Source: a virus. Taken from it: a stretch of DNA of 31,779 bases. The stretch covers positions 1-31,779 of the IMG/VR virus record IMGVR_UViG_3300050821_008324; one strand, 5' to 3'. The notes beneath the pieces are model-generated. The model made no database searches, was not told the DNA's origin, and saw nothing but the letters and a program-made list of their open reading frames with translations. Numbering within the stretch: the stretch's first letter is position 1; each line of letters starts with the position of its first letter. Positions 6,575 through 30,591 of the stretch are shown one piece after another. Made by a program: the position numbers and the translations under genes.

Positions 6575-6675
6575 GCCTCGACCTTGAGCCTGAATTTTCG
6601 CGGTTCATGCCGATTGCTCTTAAGTGGGTAACGATCGGCGCTGTCCTTAGCATTCTTTTATTTACGATTGCATGA
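6571..6675 (+). CDS. Tiny membrane peptide (34 aa)
   Basis: 34 residues: an acidic start (MSLDLEPEFSRF) and one hydrophobic segment from about 13 to the end. ATGA overlaps tie it to both neighbours. It is the last small membrane ORF before the methyltransferase. Function unknown. Confidence 0.42.
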   Translation: MSLDLEPEFSRFMPIALKWVTIGAVLSILLFTIA

Positions 6676-10473: not shown

Positions 10474-11590
10474 AGATGGGTTTCTTGACATTAGCAGGTG
10501 GCGGCCCTGACATAGCGATATCTGATCATACCAAGGCGGTCATTTCTTTTTGGTTTCGTGTTCCACAGGAATCACTTGATGCAGCACAAGCGCAGTTCAT
10601 TAGTGCGGTGGGAGGGGTGTGCGCTAGCCTTTCGGGAGATTACGACACGAATTTGCCTGGCGTTGTTCCTTTGGTCATGTTTGGCGAGAACACAACCGCT
10701 GTGTCTGGCTTTGATGGTTTTAGTGCGCAACAGAGTCCCAGCTTCATCGGCATCCAATGCGGGAACACTGACGCCCTTGCTTGGGATTGCGCGACCATAA
10801 CCCCTCCGGCTTTGGCTGCACGCTTGCAGTTAAGTGATTTTTATACAGACGGAGCTACTGGAGGTAGCAACGATAATTATAATAGAGCCGACTACTTCAA
10901 TTTTGGGCTTACCAGCAGTTGGGTTTGTCAAACACTGCCCACAGGTCCTGAAACTGGACAACAGAGCATCCCCGTAACAGCTGGGCATTGGCACCACGTC
11001 TTGGTATCATATGACATAAGCAATTCACAAAGCGCTGGCGGGGATCCGCTAACATTCACAGCTGCTAACAAATTCTATTGGGCTTTCGATGATGTGAACT
11101 ACAACGGAAGATATTTGTATCCATCGTTGATACGTGCTTATGACGGGTCTTGGGAAGAGAACGACGTTTTTTCCAATCAATGCCTTTGCTTTCCTGGTAC
11201 AAGCGGCGACATTATCTTCAATCCAGATGGCAACACAACAACGGGAAATCCTATCCAGTCAAGCTCTCACGATTTCGGCATACCAGGCAGAACTGCAGAA
11301 TCTAGTTTCATTTACAAGGTAGAGATGGCAGAGTTTCAAATGTGGACGGGACAGTCTCTTGATACGAGCGATCTTTCCATGAGACGGCTGTTCGTGGACC
11401 CTAATGGATTCCCCGTTGATATGTCCGTTGCAAAGGGTGCATTTGGTACACCAGACATTGCATTGAGTGGTCAATCGAATTGGCAAGCTGGTATAAGCAC
11501 AGGCTTGGCGGGAAACTTCACGCCAACAGGTACGATTAATCCATTCACACCCGGTCCGAGCATAGGCGCATAGAGATGGGTTTCTTGACA
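10468..11590 (+). repeat. 23-base direct repeat at the starts of two paralogues
   Basis: The 23 bases at 10468-10490 recur without change at 11568-11590, exactly 1100 bp later. They span the stop of one gene, the start of the next and the codons for MGFLT. The conserved DNA shows that the first two lectin-like genes arose by tandem duplication and offers a site for unequal recombination. Confidence 0.8.
10476..11573 (+). CDS. Lectin-like (ConA/LamG) virion protein, paralogue 1
   Basis: 365 residues, beta-rich. The features of a concanavalin A-like/LamG jelly roll are present: AVISFWFRVP near 22-31, GHWHHVLVSYDIS (about 170-182), a strand with KFYWAFDDVNYNGRY, and VEMAEFQMWTG (about 282-292). 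The C-terminal part repeats in the next protein (RRLF, GTPDI, GQSNWQ, PTGTINPFTPGP). Such folds bind glycans or trimerise in tail and decoration proteins. No signal peptide, so it is likely a virion component. It is followed after two bases by a close paralogue and then by a glycosyltransferase gene. Confidence 0.7.
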   Translation: MGFLTLAGGGPDIAISDHTKAVISFWFRVPQESLDAAQAQFISAVGGVCASLSGDYDTNLPGVVPLVMFGENTTAVSGFDGFSAQQSPSFIGIQCGNTDALAWDCATITPPALAARLQLSDFYTDGATGGSNDNYNRADYFNFGLTSSWVCQTLPTGPETGQQSIPVTAGHWHHVLVSYDISNSQSAGGDPLTFTAANKFYWAFDDVNYNGRYLYPSLIRAYDGSWEENDVFSNQCLCFPGTSGDIIFNPDGNTTTGNPIQSSSHDFGIPGRTAESSFIYKVEMAEFQMWTGQSLDTSDLSMRRLFVDPNGFPVDMSVAKGAFGTPDIALSGQSNWQAGISTGLAGNFTPTGTINPFTPGPSIGA

Positions 11591-12652
11591 CTTCTAGGCG
11601 GCGGTCCTCATATCAGCATCCCTGACTTTTCTCAGGCGATCATATCACTATGGTTTCGCATTCCATCATCCACGATCGCGGCAGCGCAGGCTGATTGGGA
11701 CAATGTATTCAACAATGGAGGTGGCGACATTTGGACCGCTCTTACTCCGTTGTTGACGTTCGGCCCTACTGATATTTCAACGCACTATTCCTATGATAGT
11801 AATGCGATGACTTACAGCCCGCTCATTGAGTTTACAAATGGGCCAAGTATTTTGGGAGTTACCACCGATTTGGGTACTGGTGTGAGTTTTCTCTCTATGT
11901 GGTTGCAATACACGACGGGAGGACCAACAGTTCCAGTTAGACCGCAAAACGATCCTCCCGGCTCCACACAGATTTCTGAAAGTGATTACTTTTTTGTAGG
12001 AGCCGGCTCGCTTCAGGCGATTTCTGGCCCCAACAGCCCCACTCCGATTGCAATAACAGCTGAGCATTGGCATCATGTTCTCGTGTCTTTTGATCTTTCG
12101 AATGGATGCTCTTGCGGCTTTGCCGATCCGATCACATTTGATCAGGTGTGCAAGTTTTGGTTGGCCTTAGACGACGTGAATAAGGATGGCTTATATCTTG
12201 GTCCACTCAATCCTGCTTGCTGGGGATCATCAGGAGGGCCCAACGACATTGTATCTGGCTGGAGCACGCAAGGCCTATCTGGTAATCCAAACACTCAATC
12301 TAATGTTCCTACAGGTTTTGCCGCCGGTCCAATGCCGACAAACGGTCATAACGTTGGCGTTCCGTCTGACAGTTCCAACTCTACGCATGTGCAAAAGGTC
12401 GAGTTGGCTGAGTTTCAAATGTGGACTGGACAGACGTTAGATACAAGTGTCACTGTCAATCGTCGGCTGTTTCTTAACGCGGATGGCTCCCCTGTTAATC
12501 CTTTGTCCGCTTCCACCGTATTAGGTACTCCCGATATTTTGTTGACAGGTCAAAGCAATTGGCAGGTTGGTAGGAACACAGGCACAGCTGGGAACTTGAA
12601 TCCAACTGGTACGATTAATCCGTTTACGCCTGGCCCGCAAGTTGGTGCATAG
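11576..12652 (+). CDS. Lectin-like (ConA/LamG) virion protein, paralogue 2
   Basis: 358 residues. Its N-terminus (MGFLTLLGGGP) and C-terminal 80 or so residues align closely with paralogue 1, including EHWHHVLVSFDLS, LALDDVNKDG, LAEFQMWTGQTLDTS and PTGTINPFTPGP, while the middle (about 40-150) has diverged. Conserved ends with a variable core suggest selection on the exposed or ligand-binding part. Ends TAGAGG, which forms the binding site for the third copy. Confidence 0.7.
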   Translation: MGFLTLLGGGPHISIPDFSQAIISLWFRIPSSTIAAAQADWDNVFNNGGGDIWTALTPLLTFGPTDISTHYSYDSNAMTYSPLIEFTNGPSILGVTTDLGTGVSFLSMWLQYTTGGPTVPVRPQNDPPGSTQISESDYFFVGAGSLQAISGPNSPTPIAITAEHWHHVLVSFDLSNGCSCGFADPITFDQVCKFWLALDDVNKDGLYLGPLNPACWGSSGGPNDIVSGWSTQGLSGNPNTQSNVPTGFAAGPMPTNGHNVGVPSDSSNSTHVQKVELAEFQMWTGQTLDTSVTVNRRLFLNADGSPVNPLSASTVLGTPDILLTGQSNWQVGRNTGTAGNLNPTGTINPFTPGPQVGA

Positions 12653-12655
12653 AGG

Positions 12656-13606
12656 ATGGCCGTACTATATCAATCAGCATCAAGTCTGGCAAATGTTTCC
12701 GCTTTCACCATATCGATGTGGTGCATGCCCGTTGCTGAAGATTTTTCATTTTTTTGGCAGGCGGGTAGCGATGATATCTTTGGCCCACCATATCCAACGT
12801 GTTACATAGTTCGTCAGGATGGCATCTTAAGTGTGAATTTTACATCCGCTCCAGACATGGATTTGATGCCAGATCTATCCTCGACGGATGAAGTTGACGA
12901 TACTTATTTTGACGCGGTTTCTAATTGGGTGACGAACACTGACACGGGTTGGGAGGTTAGCTTAAACGCCATCTATACAAGCAACCCAATTAGTCCTGGC
13001 CACTGGTTCCAACTTTTGCTCGCCGTTAACTCAGTTCCAGCAAGCATTGGTATTGGTAGCACCCTGAAAACCTTTGTGAACGGATCGCAATTGATACCAG
13101 ACAGTGGTCCTACAGTGATCAGTTCATCAGAAATCATGCAAAGTTTGCTAGGTTCTTCAGCCGATGGGTTTGCCAGTGATTCTCAAGTTAACTGGGTTAG
13201 TCTTGGACCTGGAAGCATCACTCACAACGTGGATATCACGACTACGTTGAATACTGTCCCCGCCGTGCAAATGGATTTTTCAGGTAAGCCTTTTTCCTTT
13301 CCCATTGATCTTGCTCGTGTTGCATCTGATTATGGTTCGGGGCTGTCAAACTCGATTAGTCCGATCCGTTACGCTGATATCTATGTCTATCCCGAATACA
13401 TTGATCCGGCAACACACTTCACGACCTTTGTAAATGTGGCCGGCGGCCATGGTACGCCCCAAGATCCGAATGCTGTTGTGGCAGCTCTTGGAGATCCGTT
13501 CGCTTTATTTACGGGTGGTAAGACGGTCTTTTCGATCAATCGTGGCACTGGTGGACTGTTCTCAGCCACAGGTACAATCAACGATGTTCCCGGACCCTCC
13601 TACTAA
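12656..13606 (+). CDS. Lectin-like protein, diverged paralogue 3
   Basis: 316 residues, shorter and more diverged. The jelly-roll pattern is kept (AFTISMWCMPV near 15-25, SPGHWFQLLLAVN near 115-127, KTFVNGSQLIP) and the end shows ATGTINDVPGP, matching the PTGTIN...PGP ends of the other two. It keeps the same order of elements, so it is probably an older duplicate. GAGG lies just before its ATG, and its stop overlaps the next start (TAATG). Confidence 0.62.
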   Translation: MAVLYQSASSLANVSAFTISMWCMPVAEDFSFFWQAGSDDIFGPPYPTCYIVRQDGILSVNFTSAPDMDLMPDLSSTDEVDDTYFDAVSNWVTNTDTGWEVSLNAIYTSNPISPGHWFQLLLAVNSVPASIGIGSTLKTFVNGSQLIPDSGPTVISSSEIMQSLLGSSADGFASDSQVNWVSLGPGSITHNVDITTTLNTVPAVQMDFSGKPFSFPIDLARVASDYGSGLSNSISPIRYADIYVYPEYIDPATHFTTFVNVAGGHGTPQDPNAVVAALGDPFALFTGGKTVFSINRGTGGLFSATGTINDVPGPSY

Positions 13607-15957
13607 TGTCACTCAAAACCATGGGGCCAATCGTTGACGTGGTCATTCCTAAGCCGGGAGAGAATCCTTATCTTAAGATTCGTGGGATGTATGGTATCGG
13701 CGATTGCATTTTTCAGCGAGCCGTTATTCGCGAGTTGATGAAAACGCGCACCGTCGTTCTCGAGACGTACTATTCGGATATGTACGATGATTTGGTTGCC
13801 AATGGGCTAAAGCTAAACATCGTCAAAGATCGTGGCCGAATTGCAGACTCTGCGAACCGATCCTTAAACCAAAAAGGCATGCCTCCGATCAGTGCGTACC
13901 GCGCAGATCAGTTGAAGGTCTCATACACTCCACAAGAAATATTGCGATGTGGCTCTATCCTTGCCGCAATGTACGATTCCGTCAAGCTACGCATGCCCGC
14001 ACAACCTGATTTTTCTATACCGATCAAACAAGAGTGGATAAACGCGTGGCAGTCATTTCTGAGAGAGCGAGGCATTGTTACTGATAAACCAATCGCTGTG
14101 TATCGCCCTATTTGTTTGAACACGGCGTGGACTGCTCCTGCACGCGCACCAGATCCGATCATCTATTCGACGCTGTTTCAAACAATCAAGAATAAATTTT
14201 TTTGGGTATCGATCGCAGATCTGAAAGACGAAAAGAGAACAAACAAAAAAGAGTGGATCGTTGGCAAGCACGAAAAGGTTGATCTTCATCTAGAGGGTGG
14301 AGAACTTGATTTCAAGACGCTGTGTGGACTATTCGCGTCGAGCAGTATGATTTATTCGAACCCGGGCTTCGTACCTGTACTCGCGCAAGCTTTGGGAACA
14401 CCCGTCATCGTGGTGTATGGGGCAAATGAATCTTTCAGGACGACCAACGCAGTTGGGAAGCATCTCGCAAAGACGCTGCCGATCGAATTGGACAAGCCGT
14501 GTGAGCATCATGCACAAACGTGCGCCTGCTTGAAAACGATAACAGTAGCACCAGCGAAAAAGAAGGTGCTCGAATTTACGGAGAGCGTGTTGACCAAATT
14601 TGAATCTAAGCCTCTAATCAAGCCCCGCGTCCTGATCTACGGGACGATGTATAACGATACGCCCGAGCGTTGGCAGTTGGTGCAATTGTGGGCACGGCAT
14701 CATGCGAAGGTAAACCCGGGCGTGCGGCTGCTTCTGATCGATAGCAAGTCTCCACTTTATTCCACAGATCCAATAGAAGCAGACGTATGGACCTTCCCTG
14801 ACAACATTGGTCATTTGTCGCGCAATGGACTAAAGGGCGCGAAGTCGTCGGGACGTGATGGTTGGGGACGCGCAATGTGCAAGGGCCTCGAGATGGCGAT
14901 TGAGGCTGACTATGATTACGCCGTCCATATCGAAAGCGACAGCCTCTTCAAACATCCTGTGATGCCGATCATTGAACGGATGAAGCGAGAAGAACTCGTG
15001 TTCCTGTCACCACCTGTGAAAGGCACGAAGTCTCTTGAGACGGGTTGGTTCGAGACTGGTTTGATGTTCTTCGACGTGAAGTGGGCTCGGGATTTCGGTT
15101 TCATCAAGAGGTACAATTGGCCAGGACGTCAGCCGTCACCTACACCTGAGCGTGTTATCTATAGCATCATTAATGATAATGTGGAAAAAAAGAAATGGGA
15201 ATTTGTCAATTGGGGAGCGTTGCGAGGCGACAAGCAGCAGATCAACGAGAGCAACATTGGTCAATTGGATTGGGTAACACACGTCCGCAATCCTGTGGGA
15301 ATGGACGATATTCCCTTGTATAAAAAGTTTTCAGAAGCTTCGACAGCCGGGACCTCGCCCGAAGTAACGGCTGGCACATCCGCGTCCGGGGGCAATGCGG
15401 GAAGAAATGCCCCCACTAACATCGTTAAGCTGAACCTTGGTTGTGGCACGAACAAGCTTGATGGCTGGGTCAATCATGATGCAGACGTGAACATCACGCG
15501 GCGATTACCATGGGCTGATCGTCACGCCGATTTCATTTTTGCGGAGCATGTTGTCGAGCACATCAATCTTCACCAGGCCTTGGCCTTTTTCAAGGAGTGT
15601 CTTCGTGTTCTTAAGCCGGGCGGTGTTCTCAGGATTACGGTACCATCTCTTGAGCTTATTTTTGAGAATGGGAATGATCCAGAATATCTTGAGTTCCTCC
15701 ACTCGCACAAGTGGGCGCCGACGAAAGACCTTCGTGGTGCAATGCATGCCATTCTATATTGCCACGGCCATCAGATGGCTTGGACTGGTGATCTGCTTCG
15801 CTACTGTTTGTACTATTGCGGTTATGGCGAGACCGTGGTTACCTCGCCCGGCAAATCGTCGCGCAAAGAATTGGTCGGCGTCGAGGGGCACGGTAAGGTG
15901 ATTGGCGAGAAGTTCAATCGCATTGAGAGCGTTTCAGTCGAGGCGTGGAAGCCGTGA
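13606..15957 (+). CDS. Three-domain glycosyltransferase-glycosyltransferase-methyltransferase
   Basis: 783 residues. Domain 1 (about 20-335) resembles heptosyltransferase/GT9 folds: GMYGIGDCIFQRAVI near 28-42 at the start, and a nucleotide-sugar-side motif NPGFVPVLAQALGTPVIVVYG near 250-270. Domain 2 (about 340-575) looks like a GT-A transferase with HIESDSLF (about 440-447), a DxD-like metal site. A Thr/Ser/Gly/Ala linker (about 577-606) leads to domain 3 (about 607-783), a class I SAM methyltransferase with LNLGCGTNKLDGW and EHVVEHI. One chain could therefore add two sugars and methylate the product. The acceptor is unknown; virion proteins or host surface glycan are candidates. It follows the lectin-like genes directly. 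Confidence 0.82.
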   Translation: MSLKTMGPIVDVVIPKPGENPYLKIRGMYGIGDCIFQRAVIRELMKTRTVVLETYYSDMYDDLVANGLKLNIVKDRGRIADSANRSLNQKGMPPISAYRADQLKVSYTPQEILRCGSILAAMYDSVKLRMPAQPDFSIPIKQEWINAWQSFLRERGIVTDKPIAVYRPICLNTAWTAPARAPDPIIYSTLFQTIKNKFFWVSIADLKDEKRTNKKEWIVGKHEKVDLHLEGGELDFKTLCGLFASSSMIYSNPGFVPVLAQALGTPVIVVYGANESFRTTNAVGKHLAKTLPIELDKPCEHHAQTCACLKTITVAPAKKKVLEFTESVLTKFESKPLIKPRVLIYGTMYNDTPERWQLVQLWARHHAKVNPGVRLLLIDSKSPLYSTDPIEADVWTFPDNIGHLSRNGLKGAKSSGRDGWGRAMCKGLEMAIEADYDYAVHIESDSLFKHPVMPIIERMKREELVFLSPPVKGTKSLETGWFETGLMFFDVKWARDFGFIKRYNWPGRQPSPTPERVIYSIINDNVEKKKWEFVNWGALRGDKQQINESNIGQLDWVTHVRNPVGMDDIPLYKKFSEASTAGTSPEVTAGTSASGGNAGRNAPTNIVKLNLGCGTNKLDGWVNHDADVNITRRLPWADRHADFIFAEHVVEHINLHQALAFFKECLRVLKPGGVLRITVPSLELIFENGNDPEYLEFLHSHKWAPTKDLRGAMHAILYCHGHQMAWTGDLLRYCLYYCGYGETVVTSPGKSSRKELVGVEGHGKVIGEKFNRIESVSVEAWKP

Positions 15958-17192: not shown

Positions 17193-17789
17193 ATGGCCAG
17201 CCTCTACGAAAAATATCAAGATTATACACTGTGCAATGAGCCGGTGTTCGAAGCCAATCTCACGCTTGCGGGTGAAGTCAGAGAGGTACCTGGCGATTTG
17301 GTTGAGTGTGGTGTTTGGAAAGGCGGAATGATCGCCGCAATATATGAGCGGCTCCGCCAACGTCGTCAGGTACATTTGTTCGATAGCTTTCAAGGATTGC
17401 CCAAGGCGGAGACGATCGATGGTCCCGCGGCAATGCGTTGGCAGCAAAGCAGCGCTGACAATTGCATGGTGAATTCAGGCTTTGCGATCTCTGCTATGGA
17501 GATGGCGCATTGCCGAACGTATGAGGTGCATGAAGGCTGGTTCCATGACACTCTGATCCACTACGAAGGATCGATTGCCCTGCTTCGATTGGATGCAGAT
17601 TGGTATGAGTCGACGTGGCAGTGTTTGGAACTTTTGTTCAACAGGGTTGTTAAGAATGGTATCATCATCATAGACGACTATTATGTGTGGGATGGATGTG
17701 CGCGGGCAGTTCATGAATTTCTGTCCAACAAGGATTTGACAGAGAGGATTGAGCAAGCGGGTAACGTGGCCTTTATGAGGAAGCTATGA
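17193..17789 (+). CDS. TylF/MycF-type O-methyltransferase
   Basis: 198 residues. It matches the macrocin O-methyltransferase family (TylF): DLVECGVWKGG (35-45, SAM-binding), LFDSFQGLP (62-70), LRLDADWYEST (131-141) and IIIIDDY (157-163), with Asp ligands for the Mg2+ this family needs. Known members methylate sugar hydroxyls, and related ones occur in glycan clusters. Here it probably methylates the sugar placed by a neighbouring transferase, which is inference. Slightly shorter than biosynthetic TylF (about 250 residues) but the core motifs are complete. Confidence 0.85.
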   Translation: MASLYEKYQDYTLCNEPVFEANLTLAGEVREVPGDLVECGVWKGGMIAAIYERLRQRRQVHLFDSFQGLPKAETIDGPAAMRWQQSSADNCMVNSGFAISAMEMAHCRTYEVHEGWFHDTLIHYEGSIALLRLDADWYESTWQCLELLFNRVVKNGIIIIDDYYVWDGCARAVHEFLSNKDLTERIEQAGNVAFMRKL

Positions 17790-18184: not shown

Positions 18185-18361
18185 ATGCCAAGATGCAGCT
18201 CATGCATCTATTGGAACCGCTCAGCTATCGTGCCAGATCCAAAAAATGGTAACGCTGGTCGAGCTCAATGTCTTAAAGATGGTGAGTGGCGACTTGGTAG
18301 TGAGAAGTGCTCAGAGTTCAAACGGGGCAAGTCGATCGACTGGGGAATGTATGGTGGCTGA
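18185..18361 (+). CDS. Small four-Cys zinc-binding candidate
   Basis: 58 residues from ATG 18185, preceded by a good GGAGG; ATG 18167 in the same frame (TGATG junction) would add six residues. Cysteines at 4, 7, 29 and 42 (CSSC, AQC and EKC) and a YW pair form a four-Cys pattern like small phage zinc proteins. The 3' end overlaps the start of the minor head gene. Function unknown. Confidence 0.55.
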   Translation: MPRCSSCIYWNRSAIVPDPKNGNAGRAQCLKDGEWRLGSEKCSEFKRGKSIDWGMYGG

Positions 18362-19367
18362 CGTATTAGTCAAAGCTGACGACAATGCGAAGGACGCACG
18401 CCAGAAGTGGTTCGATCTTCTTGCGGACGAGGGTTATACCGTTAAGCGCTCCTTCTTTCGTTTCGTCAACTCGATCCAATCGTCCATGTCTGACAATCAG
18501 ATCATGCGCTGGATCTATGAAAAGGACCTGAAGGGCTTCATCGAGCATATCCAGCATTTCCTTGGTGAGTTCGCTGACGAGCTCCCCGAGGTCTACGTTC
18601 GCGCGGCAACCAATGAAATCAAGCGACTGTCAGAACCAGGTAGGTTCGGGATCGGCAAGGATCGCGTCAATTTTGACAAGGGTAATCGACGCGCTGCACG
18701 CGCAATGGAACGTTCCCGATTACGATTGATCAGGGAAATCAATACCAGTCAACGGGAATCAATCAAGGAGGCAATCAGTGACTCCATTCGAAGAGGCGTG
18801 GGACCGCGTGCGGCAGCGAGACAATTTCGTGAGGCAATTGGTCTTACAAGAAATCAGGTTAGGGCCGTCAACAATTATCAGTCACTCCTGGAGAGAACGT
18901 CAGGCGAAGCTCTCAACAGAGCCCTCCGTGACGCTCGCTTTGATCGAACTGTTGAGCGTGCAATCGACAATGGGGACCTCCTGTCAGGAAAACAAATAGA
19001 AAAGATGGTGCAGCGATACGCATTGAACATGCGCAACCATCGTGCCGAAACGATCGCGCGCACCGAGACCATGCGAACGTTGAATGAAGGCAAGCAGGAA
19101 TCATGGAAGCAGATCGCCGAACAACTAGGCATGAACTATGATGACGTTGAGCGGACATGGGTTGCAACGTTGGACGATCGAACGCGCGACACGCATGCTG
19201 AAATGAACGGGCAGACCGTGACTGGAATGGAAACGCCATTTGAGTCACCATCAGGGGAAGAATTGCTATATCCAGGAGATCCGTTTGCTGACGGCGCAGA
19301 AACGATCAATTGCCGTTGCACGTTGGTCGTCAAATTCCCATCGAGTAAGATGCGGATGAATAAATGA
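18351..19367 (+). CDS. Minor head / head morphogenesis protein (Mu gpF, SPP1 gp7 type)
   Basis: 338 residues from ATG 18351, selected over far-upstream in-frame starts because GGGGA precedes it and because the upstream stretch overlaps another gene. The C-terminal domain has the PF04233 signature: TLDDRTRDTHAEMNGQ (about 278-293), PGDPF and NCRCTL near 313-327. The N-terminal part is helical and probably contacts the portal. These proteins help procapsid assembly and may be ejected with DNA. They normally sit next to the portal gene; here about 13 kb lies between them. Confidence 0.88.
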   Translation: MVADVLVKADDNAKDARQKWFDLLADEGYTVKRSFFRFVNSIQSSMSDNQIMRWIYEKDLKGFIEHIQHFLGEFADELPEVYVRAATNEIKRLSEPGRFGIGKDRVNFDKGNRRAARAMERSRLRLIREINTSQRESIKEAISDSIRRGVGPRAAARQFREAIGLTRNQVRAVNNYQSLLERTSGEALNRALRDARFDRTVERAIDNGDLLSGKQIEKMVQRYALNMRNHRAETIARTETMRTLNEGKQESWKQIAEQLGMNYDDVERTWVATLDDRTRDTHAEMNGQTVTGMETPFESPSGEELLYPGDPFADGAETINCRCTLVVKFPSSKMRMNK

Positions 19368-20146: not shown

Positions 20147-20461
20147 GTGTCTGTTGAAGCGGGCAAACGATTAGAAGAATTTCTCAGAGAAGCCGTAGAC
20201 AAATTTGGAGTGATCCCGATGGTTGACACGGGCGCAAAGCAAGGCATTCAAAGCCTTAACGACGTGATGGCTGAGATCAAGGACATGCTCAGCAATTCGA
20301 TGAATGGTGTCAAGGCGCAGATGCTAGAGCAGGGCAAGCGCATGGCGTCGGAGTATCAAGAGAACGGCCAACTCGTCGTCAAGAAGATGCAAGAGCAGCA
20401 TGACGACGCCATGCACCAGTTCAATGATCTCCTCGGCAACGAGCGCGCGGGCGACCATTGA
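20147..20461 (+). CDS. Hypothetical coiled-coil protein
   Basis: 104 residues from GTG 20147, the only start in range. Long amphipathic helices run from about 5-20 and 40-95 (QEQHDDAMHQFNDLL near the end), so a coiled-coil or scaffold-like assembly role is plausible. Its stop overlaps the TTG of the next gene (TTGA), implying coupled synthesis with the 2H/XkdF protein. Confidence 0.5.
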   Translation: MSVEAGKRLEEFLREAVDKFGVIPMVDTGAKQGIQSLNDVMAEIKDMLSNSMNGVKAQMLEQGKRMASEYQENGQLVVKKMQEQHDDAMHQFNDLLGNERAGDH

Positions 20462-21849
20462 AAAAGGACGGACCAGCCAGCGGCCCCGTTGCTGCGAACG
20501 TCCAAGGGGCGATACATGTTCCCACCCCACTGGGTTCTCGCAAAAAGAAAAAGATAAAGAAGGCTGACGATCTTTATTTTGTCCAGCCAGATGGCACTTG
20601 GAAAAAGGGCGGTGACGGTCGCAGTAAGGGCCGTCGAAAAGATGAACTACCCAAAGATGCAGTGATACGCAAGGTCGCAAAGACGCTCTACGTCAATCGA
20701 CCTGTCCTGAATGCAGATGAGATCATCGCATGGGCAAAAGAGAACGGCATTGAAAAGTGCGTTCAACCAGACGACATGCATGTCACTCTGGCCTTTTCGC
20801 GCAATCCAGTTGATTGGCCTAAGCCTGACAAAAGTCCCATCCATATATTTCCTAAAGATACCACGCTAACGCTTTTCGGTCCCGATAAAGATTGCCTCGT
20901 CCTCACATTCGATAGCGCGCTCCTGGAGGAGCGTTGGCAGGAGTTATGTGACGCGGGATGTTCATGGGACTGGAAAGGCTTTCATCCACACATCACGCTT
21001 TCGTACTCGTTCGATCTTCGCACGCAGCAATATATGCCGACATACAAGGGGCCGATCGTTCTTGGTCCTGAGGAGTTTGCAGAAGTCAACGAAGATTGGA
21101 AATCTGGCGTCGTCGAAAAAGAGGCATTAGACATGGCTGAAGTCAAGAAGATCGGCGCGCGTAACAATCGATCTGATCTCGCGCGGATCCAGCAGATGCA
21201 TGATCACGCGTGCGCACTTGGTGCAAATTGCAAGCTTGATGGTGATAAGCCTGATCCCGTTATTGTCGAGCATTACAATCAAGGCTTGACGGCGCATGAA
21301 GACGACGTGGACAAGGTTGCGCGCATCTGCAAGGTCGATGAAAGCCTAGGTCTCGTATTTGGTTATGCAATCGTCTGCACGAAAGACGGCAAGGACTACT
21401 ACGACCTCAACATAGACAAGGCTGCGGATGGCACCGTGACGCGTGTGCCCGAGCATATTCCTGAAGCATCGATGTTGAAGGCTGCAGTTGATTTCATGCA
21501 GACCGCTCGGCCTGGTAATGAGATGCATGATGGTCCTGACGTTGGAACGTTTGTATTTGCGTTCCCCATGACCAAAGAGATCGCAAAATCATTTGGTATT
21601 CAAACGAGCATGACAGGATTGATGGTCGCATATAAGCCGACTCCTGAAGTGTTCGCAAAATTCAAAGATGGAACATACAAAGGTTTTAGCATCGAGGGTC
21701 GTCGCATCACGGCAAAGATGCTCCAAGAAGAAGACGATGATATGGAGAAACGGACGCACAAGGCATCGGCCGGCAGCACAGGTGAATCCTATGGAGGAGG
21801 CGGTGGTGGCGGGGATGATGGTGGCGACGACGAAGGCGACGACGAATAA
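20458..21849 (+). CDS. 2H phosphodiesterase (Acb1-like) fused to XkdF-like protease domain
   Basis: 463 residues from TTG 20458, the first possible start in frame. Residues 60-215 look like a 2H phosphodiesterase of the Acb1 type: KTLYVNRPVL near 74, H108-V-T110 and H178-I-T180 (the two HxT motifs), with strand and aromatic patterns as in the family. Acb1 proteins cleave cyclic oligonucleotides made by bacterial CBASS defence. A linker with MHDHACALGANC follows. Residues 292-415 match XkdF-like putative serine proteases: GLVFGYAIV, H357 in NEMHDG, and GFSIEG with S411. The tail is Gly/Asp-rich (about 434-463). So one polypeptide joins an anti-defence-type enzyme to a capsid-protease-type domain. 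Assignment of each domain is from motifs only. Confidence 0.72.
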   Translation: MKKDGPASGPVAANVQGAIHVPTPLGSRKKKKIKKADDLYFVQPDGTWKKGGDGRSKGRRKDELPKDAVIRKVAKTLYVNRPVLNADEIIAWAKENGIEKCVQPDDMHVTLAFSRNPVDWPKPDKSPIHIFPKDTTLTLFGPDKDCLVLTFDSALLEERWQELCDAGCSWDWKGFHPHITLSYSFDLRTQQYMPTYKGPIVLGPEEFAEVNEDWKSGVVEKEALDMAEVKKIGARNNRSDLARIQQMHDHACALGANCKLDGDKPDPVIVEHYNQGLTAHEDDVDKVARICKVDESLGLVFGYAIVCTKDGKDYYDLNIDKAADGTVTRVPEHIPEASMLKAAVDFMQTARPGNEMHDGPDVGTFVFAFPMTKEIAKSFGIQTSMTGLMVAYKPTPEVFAKFKDGTYKGFSIEGRRITAKMLQEEDDDMEKRTHKASAGSTGESYGGGGGGGDDGGDDEGDDE

Positions 21850-21888
21850 AAAACTATAGGCGTGGCAATCCTGAAATGAGACCTCCCA

Positions 21889-22992
21889 ATGTACCGACAT
21901 CTTGGAGCAGCTAGACATGTAATTAAGCGACTGGCATCCCCACTCCACGTTATTGCAGTCGTCTTCAATCCACTTCGTTTCGTTTCGCGTTACAACCTTT
22001 TCAGGGAATTTGAGGCGCACGCCGAGAGTAATCCTGAGATCGAGTTATACATTGTTGAGCTCGCCTTAGGGGATCGCCCGTTCGAAGTTACCAAGGCAGA
22101 CAATCCAAAGCATTTTCAACTTCGCACCTATGATGAGCTCTGGCACAAGGAGCGAATGATCAACTACGCTGTTTCGCAATTGCCACCCGAGTGGGAATAT
22201 TGCGCGTGGGTCGATGCGGATGTCACGTTTTTAAATCCCGACTGGGGTCATGAGACGTTACAACAGCTCCAGCACTACCAGATCGTGCAGATGTTCACGC
22301 ACGCAATCGACCTAGGGCCGAATGGTGAACCGACGGAACAGTTCGAGGGTTTTGCGTATTCATACATTAACGGTCGTCGGGAGTTCCCTGCACTAGCTGG
22401 AGTGGAGAGGAAAAAACTCAAGGACCCGCACCATCATCCCAAGCCTCATGATGGCGAGCTCGAACATTTTGAGCCCGTGGACATTGATGGCTACTTCTAC
22501 ATGCCAAAATGGGCGCATGAAGTACCTAAGCACGTCGCGGACTATTATTCATCGCGCTATTGGCATCCTGGTTATGGCTGGGCATATCGCCGAGAAGCGT
22601 GGGATATGTTGGGCGGTCTGTTAGACATCAATATCGTTGGTGGTGGCGATCACCAAATGGCCTACGGTTTGATTGGCCGCATTGAGGAAACGATTCCAGC
22701 TGGAAGCACCGACGCATATGCGAAGGTCATCCGCAATTGGGGTGTTCAGGCGGAATTGGTCAAACGCGATATTGGAGCAGTCCCCGGAACGTTGACGCAC
22801 CATTACCATGGTAAGAAATCCAATCGTGGCTACTACAATCGATGGAAAATCTTGACTGGAAATGAGTTCGATCCGATCTTGGATATCAAACGCGATTGGC
22901 AGATGATGTGGACGCTGACCGGGAACAAGATAGAATTGCGTGATCAGCTCCGAGCCTACTTCAGGCAGAGGAACGAGGATTCAACAGAATGA
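21889..22992 (+). CDS. GT-A type glycosyltransferase
   Basis: 367 residues. WVDADVTF (about 107-114) is a DxD metal/nucleotide-sugar site after the YDELWHKERMINYAV helix. Later come YFYMPKWAHE, a WHPGYGWAYRREAWDMLGG stretch and GGGDHQMAYG (about 252-261), and a C-terminal HHYHGKKSNRGY, features of phage-encoded GT-A enzymes. The N-terminus (VIAVVFNPLRFVSRY) fits nucleotide binding. ATG 21889 has no strong ribosome-binding site, so an internal start cannot be excluded. A separate transferase, not a copy of the 13606 gene, and the acceptor is not known. Confidence 0.8.
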   Translation: MYRHLGAARHVIKRLASPLHVIAVVFNPLRFVSRYNLFREFEAHAESNPEIELYIVELALGDRPFEVTKADNPKHFQLRTYDELWHKERMINYAVSQLPPEWEYCAWVDADVTFLNPDWGHETLQQLQHYQIVQMFTHAIDLGPNGEPTEQFEGFAYSYINGRREFPALAGVERKKLKDPHHHPKPHDGELEHFEPVDIDGYFYMPKWAHEVPKHVADYYSSRYWHPGYGWAYRREAWDMLGGLLDINIVGGGDHQMAYGLIGRIEETIPAGSTDAYAKVIRNWGVQAELVKRDIGAVPGTLTHHYHGKKSNRGYYNRWKILTGNEFDPILDIKRDWQMMWTLTGNKIELRDQLRAYFRQRNEDSTE

Positions 22993-23009
22993 GCACGGAC
23001 ACGATATGA
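22989..23009 (+). other. Six-codon mini-ORF linking two genes
   Basis: ATG 22989 overlaps the glycosyltransferase stop (ATGA), encodes MSTDTI and stops at TGA 23007-23009, which itself overlaps the next ATG (23006). This creates a two-step stop/start relay that could pass ribosomes on to the 23006 gene. Chance is possible because the sequence is short. Confidence 0.3.
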
Positions 23010-23173
23010 GCAATGTCAAAGTGTTCAAGAAAGAGATCGAAGAGCAAAAGGAGTGGACGATCCAAGCGATGCGATCGTTGCTCTTCAGCCTTGATCAAAA
23101 CGGCCACCTATTTGTTAGACGGGACGAAAAGAATGTGCTCGTCTCGGCTATAGAATTGCTGGGGATGAAATGA
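23006..23173 (+). CDS. Hypothetical small helical protein
   Basis: 55 residues from ATG 23006, chosen over an in-frame start at 22940 that would overlap the transferase by more than 50 bases. Charged helix KKEIEEQKEWTIQAMRSLLF, then GHLFVRRDEKNVLVSAIELLG. ATGA overlap with the next gene. No domain recognised. Confidence 0.5.
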   Translation: MSNVKVFKKEIEEQKEWTIQAMRSLLFSLDQNGHLFVRRDEKNVLVSAIELLGMK

Positions 23174-23271
23174 GCATTATTTGGATGGTGGGTGATTGGC
23201 CCAAGGTCGCGGTGTATTGCACGGTGATTGTGTGCGCGATGATCACCTACATTGGAACGCGGAAGGGCTAA
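23170..23271 (+). CDS. Tiny membrane peptide (33 aa)
   Basis: 33 residues with one hydrophobic segment (about 11-29) and a positive TRKG end, indicating an N-out, C-in single pass. ATGA overlap with the previous gene. The next gene starts two bases after its stop. Function unknown. Confidence 0.42.
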   Translation: MSIIWMVGDWPKVAVYCTVIVCAMITYIGTRKG

Positions 23272-23273
23272 AA

Positions 23274-23579
23274 ATGTCTGACTTCGATCTGCATTGCATC
23301 AAGCGCCGTCTCGACGCTCTTTCTGAGCAAGTCAGTAAAGCGTGGAGTGATGCAGCGCGCGAGGCAGCAGCTGCAGCAAAGAAAGCTGGAAAGGCTCATG
23401 GTAGCGAGGGCAGCACTCCCGATCCAAAGCAGATGGGCAACAAGAACTACAGTAGCGCCTATCACCACGCGCTAGGCCAGCACGACAAAATGGCCGGGTA
23501 TAGTCCTCATGATGTGTATGGCTCCCACCCTGATTATAAGCGGGGATTTGCCAGCGCTAAATTCAAAGGCTCAAAATGA
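23274..23579 (+). CDS. Ala/Lys-rich head-cluster protein with shared N-terminal module
   Basis: 101 residues from ATG 23274, starting MSDFDLHCIKRRLDAL. The first 41 bases differ at one position from those of the gene at 25286, so this N-terminal module has been duplicated or exchanged. A WSDAAREAAAAAKKAGK stretch (about 25-41) is shared in pattern with 25286 and the portal tail. The rest is low-complexity and basic, with H- and K-rich segments. It may be a small internal or head-associated protein. Role unproven. Confidence 0.6.
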   Translation: MSDFDLHCIKRRLDALSEQVSKAWSDAAREAAAAAKKAGKAHGSEGSTPDPKQMGNKNYSSAYHHALGQHDKMAGYSPHDVYGSHPDYKRGFASAKFKGSK

Positions 23580-24340
23580 AATTTAAGTTAGGCAAAAAGC
23601 CCGCACGCCCAGGTGCAATGAAGCTGAAGTTCGCGGACGTTTTTGACGCGACACATCTTCCAGTTCCTCCACATTCGTTTGGTCATCAATCATTGATGGC
23701 AAATCATCAATGGGGTATGCTCGCGAATGACCAGGTTGGCGATTGCGTTCTCGCAGGTGGCGGCCATGAGAGCATGTTGTTTGCGCTCGAGGGTGGTCGT
23801 CCGTTCATATCATTTAGCGATAAAAGTACGCTTTCAGACTATACGGCAATTACTGGCTACAACCCGAATGATCCGAACTCTGATCAAGGCACGGACATGG
23901 TTGAAGCGGCGAAGTATCGTCGTATATGTGGGCTTCTCGACGCTAATGGTGTTCGGCATAAGATTGACGCATATGCCGAGATTACGCGTGGAGATCTTAC
24001 GCAGGTCACGCTAGCGACTTGGTTGTTTGGCGCGTGTGGCTGCGGCTTTGCAGTGCCTGATTCCGTTCAAGATCAATTTGACGCAGGTCAGCCTTTCGAC
24101 GTTGTGCCTGGTGCGCAGATCGAGGGTGGCCATTACATGCCCTGCATTGGTAGAAATTCGAATGGTTATTATGTCCTTGTGACCTGGGGCAAGACCGTGA
24201 CGGCTTCACCCCGCTTCATGAAGAAATATATGGACGAGGCTGTCGCTTACATCTCTCGAGATGTGATCGTTGCCAAAACGCAGAAAACGCAAGAAGGCTT
24301 CGATTTGGCTGCGCTCGATAATTTTTTGGCGCATCTGTAA
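23576..24340 (+). CDS. Papain-like cysteine peptidase candidate
   Basis: 254 residues. N51-D-Q-V-G-D-C57 followed by an Ala/Gly-rich helix start, GGHYMPCIGRN with H186, and YYVLVTWGK near 199-206 give the Cys-His-(Asn/Trp) order of papain-fold/C39-like enzymes. The ANDQVGDC motif is typical of a small family of phage and bacterial hypothetical proteins with this arrangement. No signal peptide, so it acts in the cytoplasm or in the virion. Its place among head genes allows a role in head maturation. ATGA overlap with the previous gene. Confidence 0.55.
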   Translation: MKFKLGKKPARPGAMKLKFADVFDATHLPVPPHSFGHQSLMANHQWGMLANDQVGDCVLAGGGHESMLFALEGGRPFISFSDKSTLSDYTAITGYNPNDPNSDQGTDMVEAAKYRRICGLLDANGVRHKIDAYAEITRGDLTQVTLATWLFGACGCGFAVPDSVQDQFDAGQPFDVVPGAQIEGGHYMPCIGRNSNGYYVLVTWGKTVTASPRFMKKYMDEAVAYISRDVIVAKTQKTQEGFDLAALDNFLAHL

Positions 24341-24368
24341 AAGAACGGACCTCATAAGGACAAAACGC

Positions 24369-24728
24369 ATGAGCAATGATGCTTACTACGCTGACGAATT
24401 GATCAAGAGTATCCGCGAGGGTATTGAGATTGCGAAAAATGCAGGTGATGCAGCGCGTGAAGCAATGACCGCTTCGCGCCAACATGCGGGCATTGCCTCC
24501 GACCATTTCATGGCGGCAAAGGACGCGAATAGGGCTGGTGACAGCACGAAAGCGAACTCGCATGTTAAGGCGGCATTCGCACACGACCTTGCCAGCAAGA
24601 AATACGACGACGCTGCGTCTAGTTTTTATTCCAACAAAGAGGAAGACGGCAACAAAGCAATGGGTGCCGCTGGTAAACAAGCTGAAAAGGCGCACGCCGC
24701 CACGATGAATCTTCGCGGCGCTTGTTAA
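24369..24728 (+). CDS. Ala-rich helical protein
   Basis: 119 residues from ATG 24369 with AAGGA upstream. It is Ala/Lys/His-rich and almost fully helical (IREGIEIAKNAGDAAREAM; KANSHVKAAFAHDLASKKYDDA), similar in composition to the 23274 and 25286 proteins but with a different N-terminus. Likely another small head-associated or internal protein. No domain recognised. Confidence 0.55.
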   Translation: MSNDAYYADELIKSIREGIEIAKNAGDAAREAMTASRQHAGIASDHFMAAKDANRAGDSTKANSHVKAAFAHDLASKKYDDAASSFYSNKEEDGNKAMGAAGKQAEKAHAATMNLRGAC

Positions 24729-24739
24729 GGGAGAAAAAT

Positions 24740-25273
24740 ATGGCACGGCGCATCCTTACTGAGTTCGTTATGGACAAGATTGCCGCAGTTGATCGGCCTT
24801 GCCAGGAACACGCAACTGTCACCATCATGAAGCGTGACTTCTCCGACAAGCAGCGGAAGAAGGATGCGAAGTCGGGTGCGGCTATGCCAGGCGGTGGATT
24901 CCCGATCGAGAACACGCGTGATTTGCATAACGCAGTTCGCGCGATCGGTCGTGCGAAGAATCCCGCGGCAGCGAAAGCACACATCAGGCAACGCGCAAAG
25001 GCGCTTGGTGTGGGTGATCCATTCGCGAAAGAGTTCGAGAGCGATCTTGATGCCATGGAGGTATTCAAGCAGATCACGATGCTTCGCGCCGACGTGCTGA
25101 AGGTAAAGACCAACGAGATGTTGGAAATGCAAGAGGACGACAAGGGCGGTGGTGGCAAAATGCCACGCCGCGGTCCTGTCAAGCGCAACAGTCAGCCAAT
25201 GGTCAAGGCCGTAGACCTAGAGGGCTTTTCTGGCAAGAAGAAAAAGCTCAAGGGCGGCGGACCCAAGTTTTAA
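24740..25273 (+). CDS. Phage protein with VDRP and DUF6582-like regions
   Basis: 177 residues from ATG 24740, with AAGGGAGA upstream. It opens MARRILTEFVMDKIAAVDRP, an N-terminal pattern (xISxVDRPAxxxAxxxxMKR) common at the N-terminus of phage prohead proteases and neighbouring head proteins. Then SGAAMPGGGFPIENTRDLHN (about 52-71) with AKNPAAAKAHIRQRAKALG matches DUF6582-like sequence in phage head clusters. The C-terminus is Gly/Lys-rich. It probably helps head assembly, but exact function is unknown. Confidence 0.65.
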   Translation: MARRILTEFVMDKIAAVDRPCQEHATVTIMKRDFSDKQRKKDAKSGAAMPGGGFPIENTRDLHNAVRAIGRAKNPAAAKAHIRQRAKALGVGDPFAKEFESDLDAMEVFKQITMLRADVLKVKTNEMLEMQEDDKGGGGKMPRRGPVKRNSQPMVKAVDLEGFSGKKKKLKGGGPKF

Positions 25274-25699: not shown

Positions 25700-26455
25700 A
25701 TGGCAGATGTTGACATCGCTGAGCTCGAGAAGCAGTACGCAGAGCTTGGTGAAATGATCGAAAAACTGGGCGGGTCCTGCAAAGGTCCTGAGTCTCAGGA
25801 TGCCGAGATGAAGGCAAAGGTCAAGAAAGAGCGCGTTCCTCTGAAGAAGAAGGACGTCGAGAAAGCCAAGGCGAAAGCCAAGGAAGACGACGAAGAGGAC
25901 GACGATTCCGAAGAAGACGATGACGACTACGAGGATGATGTGGCACCCGCAAAAACCAAGAAGGCTGCTCCTGCAAAGGACGAAGAGATCGTCTTCAAGG
26001 GCCAGACCATCAAGAAGTCCGCCGTCGGTGAAATCCAGTTCGGTATCGCCAAGGCAATGAGCGAAGAGCTCACCAAGAACTCTGAAGCCATCGCGAAGGC
26101 TCAGGACGAGGCCATTTTGGCCAAGCTTGCAAAGCGCGCTGACGATGAGTTCTCGCATGTTCCGGGCACCACTGCCCAACGTGCGGAGATGCTGAAGGCC
26201 ATCTCCAAGATGGACGAAGATCTCGCGAAGTCGTTCGAAGCCGTTTTCGCCCAGTCTGAAAAGCTGGCGAAGGGCGCATTCGGCAAGATTGGTGTTGCAG
26301 GTGGTGACTCCGATAACATCAAGAAGTCTGCGGAAGACTTCCTGACCAAGGTCGGCGAAATTCAGAAGCGCGATAGTTCCAAGCGCACTGAAGCGATGGC
26401 CAAGGCGCGTTCGGAGCATCCGGACCTCTTCAAAGCCTATCAGTCTCAGAACTAA
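25700..26455 (+). CDS. Scaffold/assembly protein candidate (acidic)
   Basis: 251 residues with a strongly acidic middle (KAKEDDEEDDDSEEDDDD, about 56-73) between helical parts, as in many scaffolding proteins. The N-terminal part (ELEKQYAELGEMIEKLGG) and the C-terminal part (EAVFAQSEKLAKGAFG; EIQKRDSSKRTEAMAKA) are helical. It sits directly before the cement and capsid genes with an AAGGAG site, the classic place of a scaffold. It could also carry the scaffold function together with the XkdF-like protease region of 20458. Medium certainty. Confidence 0.7.
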   Translation: MADVDIAELEKQYAELGEMIEKLGGSCKGPESQDAEMKAKVKKERVPLKKKDVEKAKAKAKEDDEEDDDSEEDDDDYEDDVAPAKTKKAAPAKDEEIVFKGQTIKKSAVGEIQFGIAKAMSEELTKNSEAIAKAQDEAILAKLAKRADDEFSHVPGTTAQRAEMLKAISKMDEDLAKSFEAVFAQSEKLAKGAFGKIGVAGGDSDNIKKSAEDFLTKVGEIQKRDSSKRTEAMAKARSEHPDLFKAYQSQN

Positions 26456-26509: not shown

Positions 26510-26857
26510 ATGGCAACTGGTATGCTTGGCCAAACGATTTGGGCCGCGAATGCTAACAGCACCAATGTTGGTCTGTTCCTGTTCGCCAAAATGGTTGCTG
26601 GTAACCTGTTCGATCGAGCAGGTGCTGGCGATGTAACTGTCGGAGTTTTTGTCGAGGTCAACGGCACCTCTGGTCCAGCTTCGGCTGTGCTTGATGGTGT
26701 TTGCAAGATCACTCTTGCTTCCACGCTCAGCGCTGGTGCAAAGGTCGAGTCTGACGCAAACGGCAAGGCTGTTGCGAATAGCTCGGGCTTCCTCGCAGGC
26801 ATTCTGCTCGCGGGCGGCGTCTCTGGTGACATTGTGCCGATGAAGATCGCTAGCTAA
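26510..26857 (+). CDS. Capsid cement/decoration protein (DUF2190-like)
   Basis: 115 residues, Gly/Ala/Val-rich, beta-rich. A TVGVFVEVNGTSGPASAVLDGVCKITLA-type strand pattern, then GAKVESDANGKAV and LAGILLAGGVSGDIVPM, is typical of DUF2190-like capsid cement proteins that coat the head. AGGAGA precedes the ATG. It lies between scaffold and major capsid, as in many siphophages. Confidence 0.75.
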   Translation: MATGMLGQTIWAANANSTNVGLFLFAKMVAGNLFDRAGAGDVTVGVFVEVNGTSGPASAVLDGVCKITLASTLSAGAKVESDANGKAVANSSGFLAGILLAGGVSGDIVPMKIAS

Positions 26858-26902: not shown

Positions 26903-27895
26903 ATGCCTGATACCTCACAGAACGTACAAGGTACGTTACACGTTGACCGGTATTTGACGAATTACTCGGTCAACTACGTGCAGGATCGCCGGGTGTTTAT
27001 CGCCCAGCGTGCTGCATCCGTCATCCCTGTTCTGAAGCAGACTGACGAATACGTGATCTACGATCGCGGTTATTTCTGGCGTGACGAAGCCGCTCCTCGC
27101 GGCCTCGGTGGTCGGCCCCAACAGGTCGGCTATGCGATCACCAACGGCAACTACAGCGCAATCGAATATGCGCTGGAGCACATCGTTGATGACCGTCAGC
27201 GCGCGAATGCCGACGATCCGATCCGGCTGGACGAAAACGCGACTACCCTGCTCACGCAGAAGCACATGATCAAGCAGGATCGTGTGTGGGCCTCCAACTT
27301 CTTCACGACCGGCAAGTGGTCCACGGAGTTGACTGGTGTTGCGTCCTCTCCGTCCACGAACCAGTTCTTGCAGTTCAACGATGCCCACTCGGATCCGATT
27401 GGTGTCGTCGATGCTGCCAAGGACGCGATGCAACAGAAGACCGGCTTCATGCCGAACATTCTGGTGCTCGGCACCGCGGTCAAGCGCACCCTGCGCTCGC
27501 ACCCGGATATCGCAGACCGCATCAAGTACACCCAGACCGGCATTGCCGACGAGGATGTGCTTGGCAAGCTGTTCGAAATCCCGACTGTCCTCACTGCTCG
27601 CGCTGTTTACAACGCGGCAGCGGAAGGTCAGACCAATGATTTCGAATACATCTCCGACGCCAAGGCAATGTGGCTCGGCTACATCGAACCGAATCCCGGT
27701 CTCGATAGCCCGACCGCGATTGCGAACTTCGCGTGGACCGGCCTTATTCCGGGCGTCACCAACACCATCGGTGGCGTGATCGAGCGTGGTCGCGACGATC
27801 GGGCGCACAGCGATTACTTCCAGGGCCGTATGGCTTGGGATCTTCGCATCGTTGCATCCGACCTCGGCGTGTTCTTCGGTCAGACTGTCGCGTAA
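26903..27895 (+). CDS. Major capsid protein
   Basis: 330 residues with AAGGA before ATG 26903. The order scaffold-cement-capsid, the size, the high C/G third-position use and the run of folded motifs (RVFIAQRAASVIPVLKQTDEY near 29-49; YALEHIVDDRQRAN; GIADEDVLGKLFEIPTVLTARAVYNAA near 213-239; a DRAHSDYF and LRIVASDLGVFFGQTVA end) mark an HK97-fold capsid protein of the phage coat family. It forms the icosahedral shell. A strong terminator follows directly. Confidence 0.88.
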   Translation: MPDTSQNVQGTLHVDRYLTNYSVNYVQDRRVFIAQRAASVIPVLKQTDEYVIYDRGYFWRDEAAPRGLGGRPQQVGYAITNGNYSAIEYALEHIVDDRQRANADDPIRLDENATTLLTQKHMIKQDRVWASNFFTTGKWSTELTGVASSPSTNQFLQFNDAHSDPIGVVDAAKDAMQQKTGFMPNILVLGTAVKRTLRSHPDIADRIKYTQTGIADEDVLGKLFEIPTVLTARAVYNAAAEGQTNDFEYISDAKAMWLGYIEPNPGLDSPTAIANFAWTGLIPGVTNTIGGVIERGRDDRAHSDYFQGRMAWDLRIVASDLGVFFGQTVA

Positions 27896-29256: not shown

Positions 29257-30591
29257 ATGGCAAAGCCACTCCAATCTCTCAAGATGCCGCCGAAGGTGAG
29301 GACTTCTCACCCGGCGGTGAAAGAAATCAACGACTACGCAGCAGCTAGTCTTGCCGCGCAGCGTCATTACAAAGCCGCCATGATCGCGGGTAAGCGTGCC
29401 ATACGTGTTGATCCCTATTCGAAAGAAATATGGTCGAATATCGGCACATACTATTTCAATCTTCGCGAGTATGAAGAAGCCGAGGCGTGTCTGCTGCGAT
29501 CCCTGTCTATCGATCCCGATTATGCGACTGCGCTTTGCAACCTTGCTTTGGTGTATGGAGCGACACGTCAGTGGGACAAGGCCGATGACCATTTCGCAAA
29601 GGCTCAGTCTAGCGATCCCGAATATCTTGCGACCACATGGGATTGGTCATTGTCGAAACTTAGACGCGGTGACTACGCGAATGGTTTCAAGGATTACGAA
29701 GTCAGGCTCAAGTTCAGACCACAGGCGTATCCCAAGTGGCCCGCACCATATTATAACGGAGAGCCTTTAAACGGCAAATCCGTGTTCCTGATCGGTGAGC
29801 AGGGGATCGGTGACACGATCATGTTCTCCCGCTTCTTACCATGGTTACACGCGCAGGGAGTCAGGATATACCTATGCGTGTCGCAACAGGTGACCTCCCT
29901 GCTTTGGGAGTATAATGACCTGGTCCAATTCATTCCTGAAGGCATTCCCGTTCCAAAGACCGACTATTCGATGGCGATGGGCTCGTTGCCGTATTGGTAT
30001 GGGATGCTTACTCCCGATGACTTACCGCGTGATCCAGGATTTATTCGTCGCCGTGTTGTTGACTTCATGGCAAAGGAAAGCGCGGACCTACCCGTACCCC
30101 TTGCGCCAGATCCATTCAAGATTGGTATCGTGTGGACGGGTAATCCAGCAATGGATCGCAACGAAGAGCGTTCCATCCCTCTTACGCAATTAGCGCGACT
30201 TGCGGAAGATCCTCGAGCATGGCTGTATTCGTTTCAATGCGGTCCTGGTCAGCCGGATATTGAAAAATTCGGACTGAACCAGTTGGTCTGCGATTTATCT
30301 CCCGCGCTTATGTCTCGAGGACTGGTTGGCACTGCGGCGGCTCTTATGCAGATGGATTTAGTCGTAACCTGCTGCACGATGACGGCGCATCTCGCAGGTG
30401 CGCTCGGCATTCCCTGCTGGTTGCTTCTATGCTATGACTCATATTGGCCGTGGTTGCTGGATCGTGAGGACAGCCCGTGGTATCCTTCGCTTCGCCTATT
30501 TCGTCAGACGCTGCCCGACAATTGGACTTGGGTGCTCAACAACGTGGTGAAGGAACTTGACATTCATATCTCACAAAAAAGAGGAAAATAG
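29257..30591 (+). CDS. TPR-domain glycosyltransferase (GT9-like)
   Basis: 444 residues. Residues 34-150 contain about three TPR repeats (AMIAGKRAIRVDPYSKEIW; EAEACLLRSLSIDPDYATAL; DKADDHFAKAQSSDPEYLA). Residues 165-444 are a heptosyltransferase-like domain with LIGEQGIGDTIMFSRFLP (about 177-194), IGIVWTGNP (about 288-296) and AHLAGALGIPCWLL (about 381-394). TPR-transferases of this type modify proteins or glycans; TPRs can bind the acceptor. It is the second GT9-like region in the window and the only one downstream of the capsid genes. Acceptor unknown, but a tail or capsid protein is plausible. Confidence 0.85.
   Translation: MAKPLQSLKMPPKVRTSHPAVKEINDYAAASLAAQRHYKAAMIAGKRAIRVDPYSKEIWSNIGTYYFNLREYEEAEACLLRSLSIDPDYATALCNLALVYGATRQWDKADDHFAKAQSSDPEYLATTWDWSLSKLRRGDYANGFKDYEVRLKFRPQAYPKWPAPYYNGEPLNGKSVFLIGEQGIGDTIMFSRFLPWLHAQGVRIYLCVSQQVTSLLWEYNDLVQFIPEGIPVPKTDYSMAMGSLPYWYGMLTPDDLPRDPGFIRRRVVDFMAKESADLPVPLAPDPFKIGIVWTGNPAMDRNEERSIPLTQLARLAEDPRAWLYSFQCGPGQPDIEKFGLNQLVCDLSPALMSRGLVGTAAALMQMDLVVTCCTMTAHLAGALGIPCWLLLCYDSYWPWLLDREDSPWYPSLRLFRQTLPDNWTWVLNNVVKELDIHISQKRGK

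Follow-up and report, generated by a model that had tools for sequence, protein, structure and literature searches.

The window analysed here (31,779 nucleotides; positions 1 to 31,779 of IMG/VR virus record IMGVR_UViG_3300050821_008324, from an uncultured phage) encodes a single polypeptide in which an Acb1-family 2H phosphodiesterase domain, predicted to be catalytically intact, is joined to an XkdF-type head maturation protease, an arrangement confirmed by sequence comparison and structure models. The placement of Acb1 on a maturation protease appears to be new, as no report of it was found; 2H domains on portal and MuF proteins have already been published.

Architecture of the Acb1-XkdF protein

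The fusion is encoded by an open reading frame of 463 codons at 20458-21849 (+ strand), identified from the ORF list and its translation. Its TTG start codon shares the sequence TTGA with the stop codon of an upstream frame (20147-20461). A preliminary description of this DNA had placed the gene at exactly these coordinates, and the two HxT motifs, the histidine and the serine that it singled out are all found at the residues it gave. Residues 1-74 (20458-20679) form an N-terminal tail that is of low confidence or disordered as judged from the AlphaFold2 model and alignment, and that begins with a KDGP..G..HV..PLG-like sequence common to three other fusions (L028, L073 and L172). The tail is followed by the Acb1-type domain (residues 75-216; 20680-21105), a linker motif (residues 230-258, KKIGARNNRSDLARIQQMHDHACALGANC; 21145-21231) with a helix predicted at residues 238-253, the XkdF-type domain (about residues 288-417; 21319-21708), and an acidic, Gly/Asp-rich C-terminal tail of low pLDDT (residues 418-463; 21709-21846). 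The linker pattern, GARHxxxDxxxIQxxHDxAxxLGAxC, is also present at varying positions in head proteins of five other loci (L063, L068, L085, L149 and L151). Both active sites are invariant in an alignment of 13 fusions whose identity to the window protein is about 37-45%, and the full-length AlphaFold2 model made from these 13 aligned sequences is confident mainly across the Acb1 region.

The assignment of the N-terminal half to the Acb1 family is, at the sequence level, far beyond chance. Residues 75-216 match PF23474 with E=1.6e-36 (125.6 bits, with a cut-off of 27), and PHROG_755 is matched with E=1.2e-23. The closest relatives of solved structure by sequence are the C-terminal region of the portal of cyanophage Pam3 (8hds, E=2.6e-22) and Acb1 of Erwinia phage FBB1 (7t26, 1.6e-8). 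The modelled domain has pLDDT values mostly between 76 and 96, and a Foldseek search of the PDB places Acb1 at the top (7t26 with a target TM of 0.85 and E=2.5e-8, 7t27 with 0.79), ahead of the BCSR5 phosphodiesterase and LigT; the Acb1-like 2H fold proposed in the preliminary description is thus borne out. The only HxT motifs in the protein are H108-V-T110 (20779-20787) and H178-I-T180 (20989-20997), and alignment with Acb1 of phage T4 (57B) pairs them with H44, T46, H113 and T115, so that the whole tetrad is kept. Three of the four T4 stacking aromatics are also retained (Y12, F107 and W147 correspond to Y78, W172 and W214). Unlike in known Acb1, neither W74 nor E141 is clearly retained: W74 has no clear counterpart, with F140 nearby, and E141 aligns with A208, next to E209. 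The catalytic, nucleotide-stacking (Y12, W74, F107, W147) and adenine-contacting (E141) roles of these residues are taken from PMC9117128. With all four catalytic residues and three stacking aromatics in place, the 2H domain should therefore be active. By analogy with known Acb1 we infer that it would use HxT acid-base chemistry to cleave cyclic di- or trinucleotides of the CBASS type; the sequence does not reveal exactly which nucleotides it prefers.

The C-terminal half matches PHROG_1530 with E=5.7e-29. Its score against PF14550 (XkdF / Peptidase_S78_2) is 19.9 bits (E=7.6e-4), under the cut-off of 24 that two sister fusions clear (L020 with 36.1 bits and L068 with 39.3 bits). A model of the XkdF domain built from 71 relatives has a pLDDT of 84 and matches predicted XkdF/PBSX proteins in BFVD with a query TM of about 0.7 and a probability of 1.0. 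A search of the PDB with the same fold gave zero matches, and the protease fold accordingly rests on BFVD and sequence. H357 (21526-21528) and S411 (21688-21690, within GFSI) are invariant in the 13 fusions and the 71 XkdF domains and are the candidate catalytic histidine and serine. AlphaFold2 modelling and comparison with Acb1 structures, the check that the preliminary description had put forward, recovered both the 2H fold and the XkdF/PBSX-like domain, in agreement with its reading of this half as XkdF-like. Profile comparison with hhalign gives a probability of 22% between XkdF and S78, making a distant kinship possible, and shows no similarity between XkdF and DUF2213. A conserved cleavage site between the Acb1 and XkdF domains was searched for and not found; a conserved EK that follows the Acb1 domain was a candidate but was dropped, similar residues being present at the end of some portal-borne Acb1 domains. 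As regards annotation, the labels 'DNA methyltransferase' (PHROG_1530) and 'RNA ligase' (PHROG_755) sit on the XkdF protease and Acb1 families, respectively, and have spread to phage records.

Gene neighbourhood and known relatives

Both domains are on one protein, as the preliminary description proposed, and its gene lies within a head-assembly cluster. By Pfam and PHROG the order of the cluster is terminase, Mu-type portal, MuF-like protein, fusion, scaffold-like protein, decoration protein and capsid-E major capsid protein. The portal (2971-5145; PF06074 E=6.9e-19, phrog_113 E=9e-49) is of the Mu type and has no Acb1 domain. The MuF-like head morphogenesis protein that precedes the protease (18246-19367; PF04233 E=9.3e-17, phrog_3517 E=3.3e-80), the scaffold-like protein (25700-26455; phrog_19463 E=3e-8), whose homologues adjoin fusions in other loci, the capsid decoration or cement-like protein (26510-26857; phrog_673 E=1.4e-6 and a weak match to PF09956) and the capsid-E type major capsid protein (26903-27895; phrog_1005 E=4.3e-80, PF03864) are all encoded on the + strand, as is the portal. 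The fusion thus occupies the slot expected of the protease, with the MuF-like gene before it and those for the scaffold, decoration and major capsid proteins after it, and other fusion loci usually have MuF upstream and scaffold and capsid genes downstream. In relatives, the scaffold gene directly follows XkdF; in the window, about 2.9 kb (21850-24721), holding a glycosyltransferase-like gene and small genes, part the XkdF gene from this usual neighbour. The frame at 24722-25273 (+) encodes a protein similar to head maturation proteases in their C-terminal part (phrog_80 E=7.6e-4); in the relatives RDJL6, ZS04 and TM3 its counterpart forms the N-terminus encoded by the scaffold gene adjoining XkdF.

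Methyltransferase, TylF-like, glycosyltransferase-like and TPR genes are found among the structural genes (6672-7268, 13606-15957, 17193-17789, 21889-22992 and 29257-30591). Two adjacent frames (10476-11573 and 11576-12652) encode similar proteins that share sequences at both termini and look like the outcome of a tandem duplication; the product of the first has no Pfam match. Across the window no RNA families or tRNAs were found, and a PADLOC search for defence systems returned nothing.

Cultured phages provide counterparts for each half of the protein. The XkdF proteases of RDJL6, ZS04, RHph_TM3_3_9, RSP and 13VV501A are 40-53% identical to the protease domain, have the same histidine and serine, and are encoded at the corresponding position, close to MuF and scaffold/capsid genes. 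Unlike the window protein they are short and lack Acb1, and several carry a different extension at the N-terminus (a ParB-like one in RHph_TM3_3_9, as judged by eye). The Acb1 half shares with Acb1 of T4 and FBB1 (57B, 7t26/7t27; PF23474) the 2H fold, the HxT/HxT tetrad and the positions of the three aromatics, but Acb1 as known so far is small and stands alone, whereas in the window it makes up the N-terminal half of a head protease. Portals with a C-terminal Acb1 domain (Pam3 8hds, psageB2, phiPSA1, and Rhizobium and Synechococcus phages) likewise place Acb1 on a head-interior protein, in their case at the other end of a different carrier. The window protein also combines domains of disparate activity with a virion head component on one polypeptide (Pfam, PHROG), as polyvalent proteins do, and resembles the polyvalent proteins of Iyer et al. 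2017 (PMC5512222) that join 2H domains to virion head domains. Those proteins are MuF and portal fusions; XkdF has no occurrence in the main text of that paper, and Acb1 was uncharacterised at the time. A literature search largely outside the subscription journals found no published fusion of Acb1 or 2H domains to maturation proteases.

Recurrence and evolution of Acb1 carriers

Profile scans of IMG/VR together with phage records gave a census of 216 distinct Acb1 domains, whose shares are not population frequencies because the sample is biased towards sequences resembling the query and towards portal-type sequences. In this similarity-biased census, about 87% of the domains are carried by portal, protease or MuF proteins. 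Portals of three families account for 157, XkdF proteases for 19 (the window protein and 18 other distinct IMG/VR fusions; nine of the 19 have an N-terminal ChaB domain), DUF2213 proteases for seven, Peptidase_S78 proteases for three and MuF alone for two, while 12 domains are stand-alone small ORFs and 16 have carriers that the profiles used did not identify. Carrier types were confirmed by Pfam for example loci, and RefSeq phages annotate relatives of the DUF2213 carriers as head maturation protease. HxT or HxS is retained in 215 of the 216 domains. Every census locus has at most one Acb1 gene, and in loci with a head cluster of the window's kind (L015 and L129/L317) Acb1 is on the Mu-type portal and XkdF is unfused.

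Among 50,697 cultured-phage records, no Acb1-protease fusion was seen. Of the cultured phage matches listed, none aligns at any one place with over roughly one third of the window protein, and none reaches 80% coverage of a fusion to S78 or DUF2213. A single-sequence scan for close relatives found one locus in viral contigs and none in genomes, and a scan of genome contigs with the fusion profile gave nine XkdF-only matches, one match to the linker motif only and no full fusion. Identical fusion sequences are present in separate assemblies (the L149 type in three contigs, and also L063 and L071), which argues against assembly errors.

The N-terminus of XkdF looks like a variable cargo slot, since an N-terminal extension of at least 85 aa is present on about 30 of the 84 XkdF domains that are unfused, and ParB-like N-terminal domains are found on XkdF proteases of L094, L095, L102 and the cultured phage RHph_TM3_3_9 (L005). 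Other combinations were also observed: a 1037-aa ORF (L085:4413-7523) has NUDIX, Acb1, XkdF-like and scaffold-like regions, one ORF (L098:4617-6608) has a pyridine nucleotide-disulphide oxidoreductase domain after XkdF, and a similar oxidoreductase is found together with Acb1 in L014.

With regard to the history of the fusions, the hypothesis that all protease-fused Acb1 domains go back to one origin is rejected at a borderline level (p-AU 0.047). For the XkdF fusions taken by themselves, one origin is not rejected (p=0.29), and for this reason the seven changes on the best tree are not claimed to be independent. In close pairs, dN/dS of the Acb1 part is about 0.10-0.23, and by this sequence measure the Acb1 part is under purifying selection. 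In one pair (L199 and L208) the XkdF domains are 99% identical with a dS of 0.18, whereas the Acb1 domains are 88% identical with a dS of 0.76, a contrast that suggests that the Acb1 domain was swapped by recombination.

Possible roles of the fusion

The reading favoured here, at about even chances, is that of a bifunctional protein whose Acb1 half acts late, within the phage-producing cell, while tethered to the assembling prohead. There it would destroy CBASS-type cyclic di- or trinucleotides during head assembly, and the fusion would guarantee that the protease and the signal-destroying enzyme are made together. The prohead protease of phage Bas13 is reported to interact with a CBASS sensor and to induce growth arrest (Richmond-Buccola 2024, as described in PMC12409349), and the title of a 2026 preprint (Hobbs and Kranzusch, cited in PMC13424991) states that phage protease enzymes activate CBASS. 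Since a prohead protease is reported to be a CBASS activator, joining Acb1 to the protease would put the antidote on the trigger, which suggests, by analogy, a late in-cell role for the fusion that the preliminary description did not contain. The combination of both domains with apparently intact active sites, the head-cluster synteny, the purifying selection, the limit of one Acb1 gene per locus and the recurrence of Acb1 on three kinds of protease, with one origin for all of them borderline rejected, are in line with such a role. The link from the Bas13 protease to XkdF is by analogy, however; most Acb1 domains of the census are on portals, the XkdF slot also holds domains unrelated to CBASS (ParB-like, NUDIX), and the XkdF fusions may have had one origin. 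To our knowledge there is no report of portals triggering CBASS. The broader proposition, that CBASS senses head assembly and notably the maturation protease, and that several phage lineages have built the antidote into the sensed protein so that the product is destroyed on the spot, is tentative and seems rather unlikely as it stands.

The preliminary description, which as a whole is partly supported, had instead proposed delivery: the protease half would be the ticket into the prohead, and Acb1 would be cut free during maturation, packaged, and brought into the next host with the DNA to clear CBASS signals from the start. The idea is not new, as injection of 2H-portal and 2H-MuF fusions to counter nucleotide-based defences was proposed in 2017 (PMC5512222). 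Packaging is consistent with almost all identified carriers being head-interior proteins (portal, protease, MuF), with the Pam3 portal, whose PDB sequence ends with the Acb1 domain, and with the other enzymatic domains (ParB-like, NUDIX) in the N-terminal slot of XkdF. The late antidote is nonetheless favoured over delivery because, as a matter of general knowledge, maturation proteases usually degrade themselves and exit the prohead; portals, for their part, stay in the capsid and are not injected. No conserved site was found at which Acb1 could be cut from XkdF, and delivery is on balance judged unlikely, if not strongly so.

It is improbable that the 2H domain is active on another substrate, whether RNA ends with a 2′,3′-cyclic phosphate or some other signalling nucleotide. 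2H enzymes vary widely in substrate, the positions of E141 and W74 differ as described above, and Iyer et al. 2017 (PMC5512222) also weighed an RNase role for 2H domains, but the LigT-type models fare poorly against this protein: TIGR02258 scores 21.8 bits, below its cut-off of 65.7, and PF02834 scores 25.9 bits, just over its cut-off of 23.3 and far under the score of the Acb1 model, and the top structural match is Acb1. Still less probable is a role of the fusion in expression only, whereby Acb1 would ride on an essential and abundant late protein so as to be always made and not losable, with tethering and packaging irrelevant; the identified carriers are several kinds of essential late head protein, as this would require, but they include no fusion to a major capsid, tail or terminase protein (16 carriers being without identification). 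An inactive 2H domain, kept as a structural leftover or a binding module on what is, after all, a structural protein, is hardly credible given the near-universal HxT/HxS motifs and the purifying selection.

How CBASS senses phage is still under study, and the recent naming of a prohead protease as an activator raises the interest of the fusion. Natural fusions of Acb1 to three prohead-protease families yield a direct prediction as to where and when CBASS acts. Acb1 proteins have been described as relatively rare among phage proteins (PMC11722364); the carriers found here suggest that the family is often a domain of head-assembly proteins and not a free protein, which has consequences for the cataloguing of anti-defence genes.
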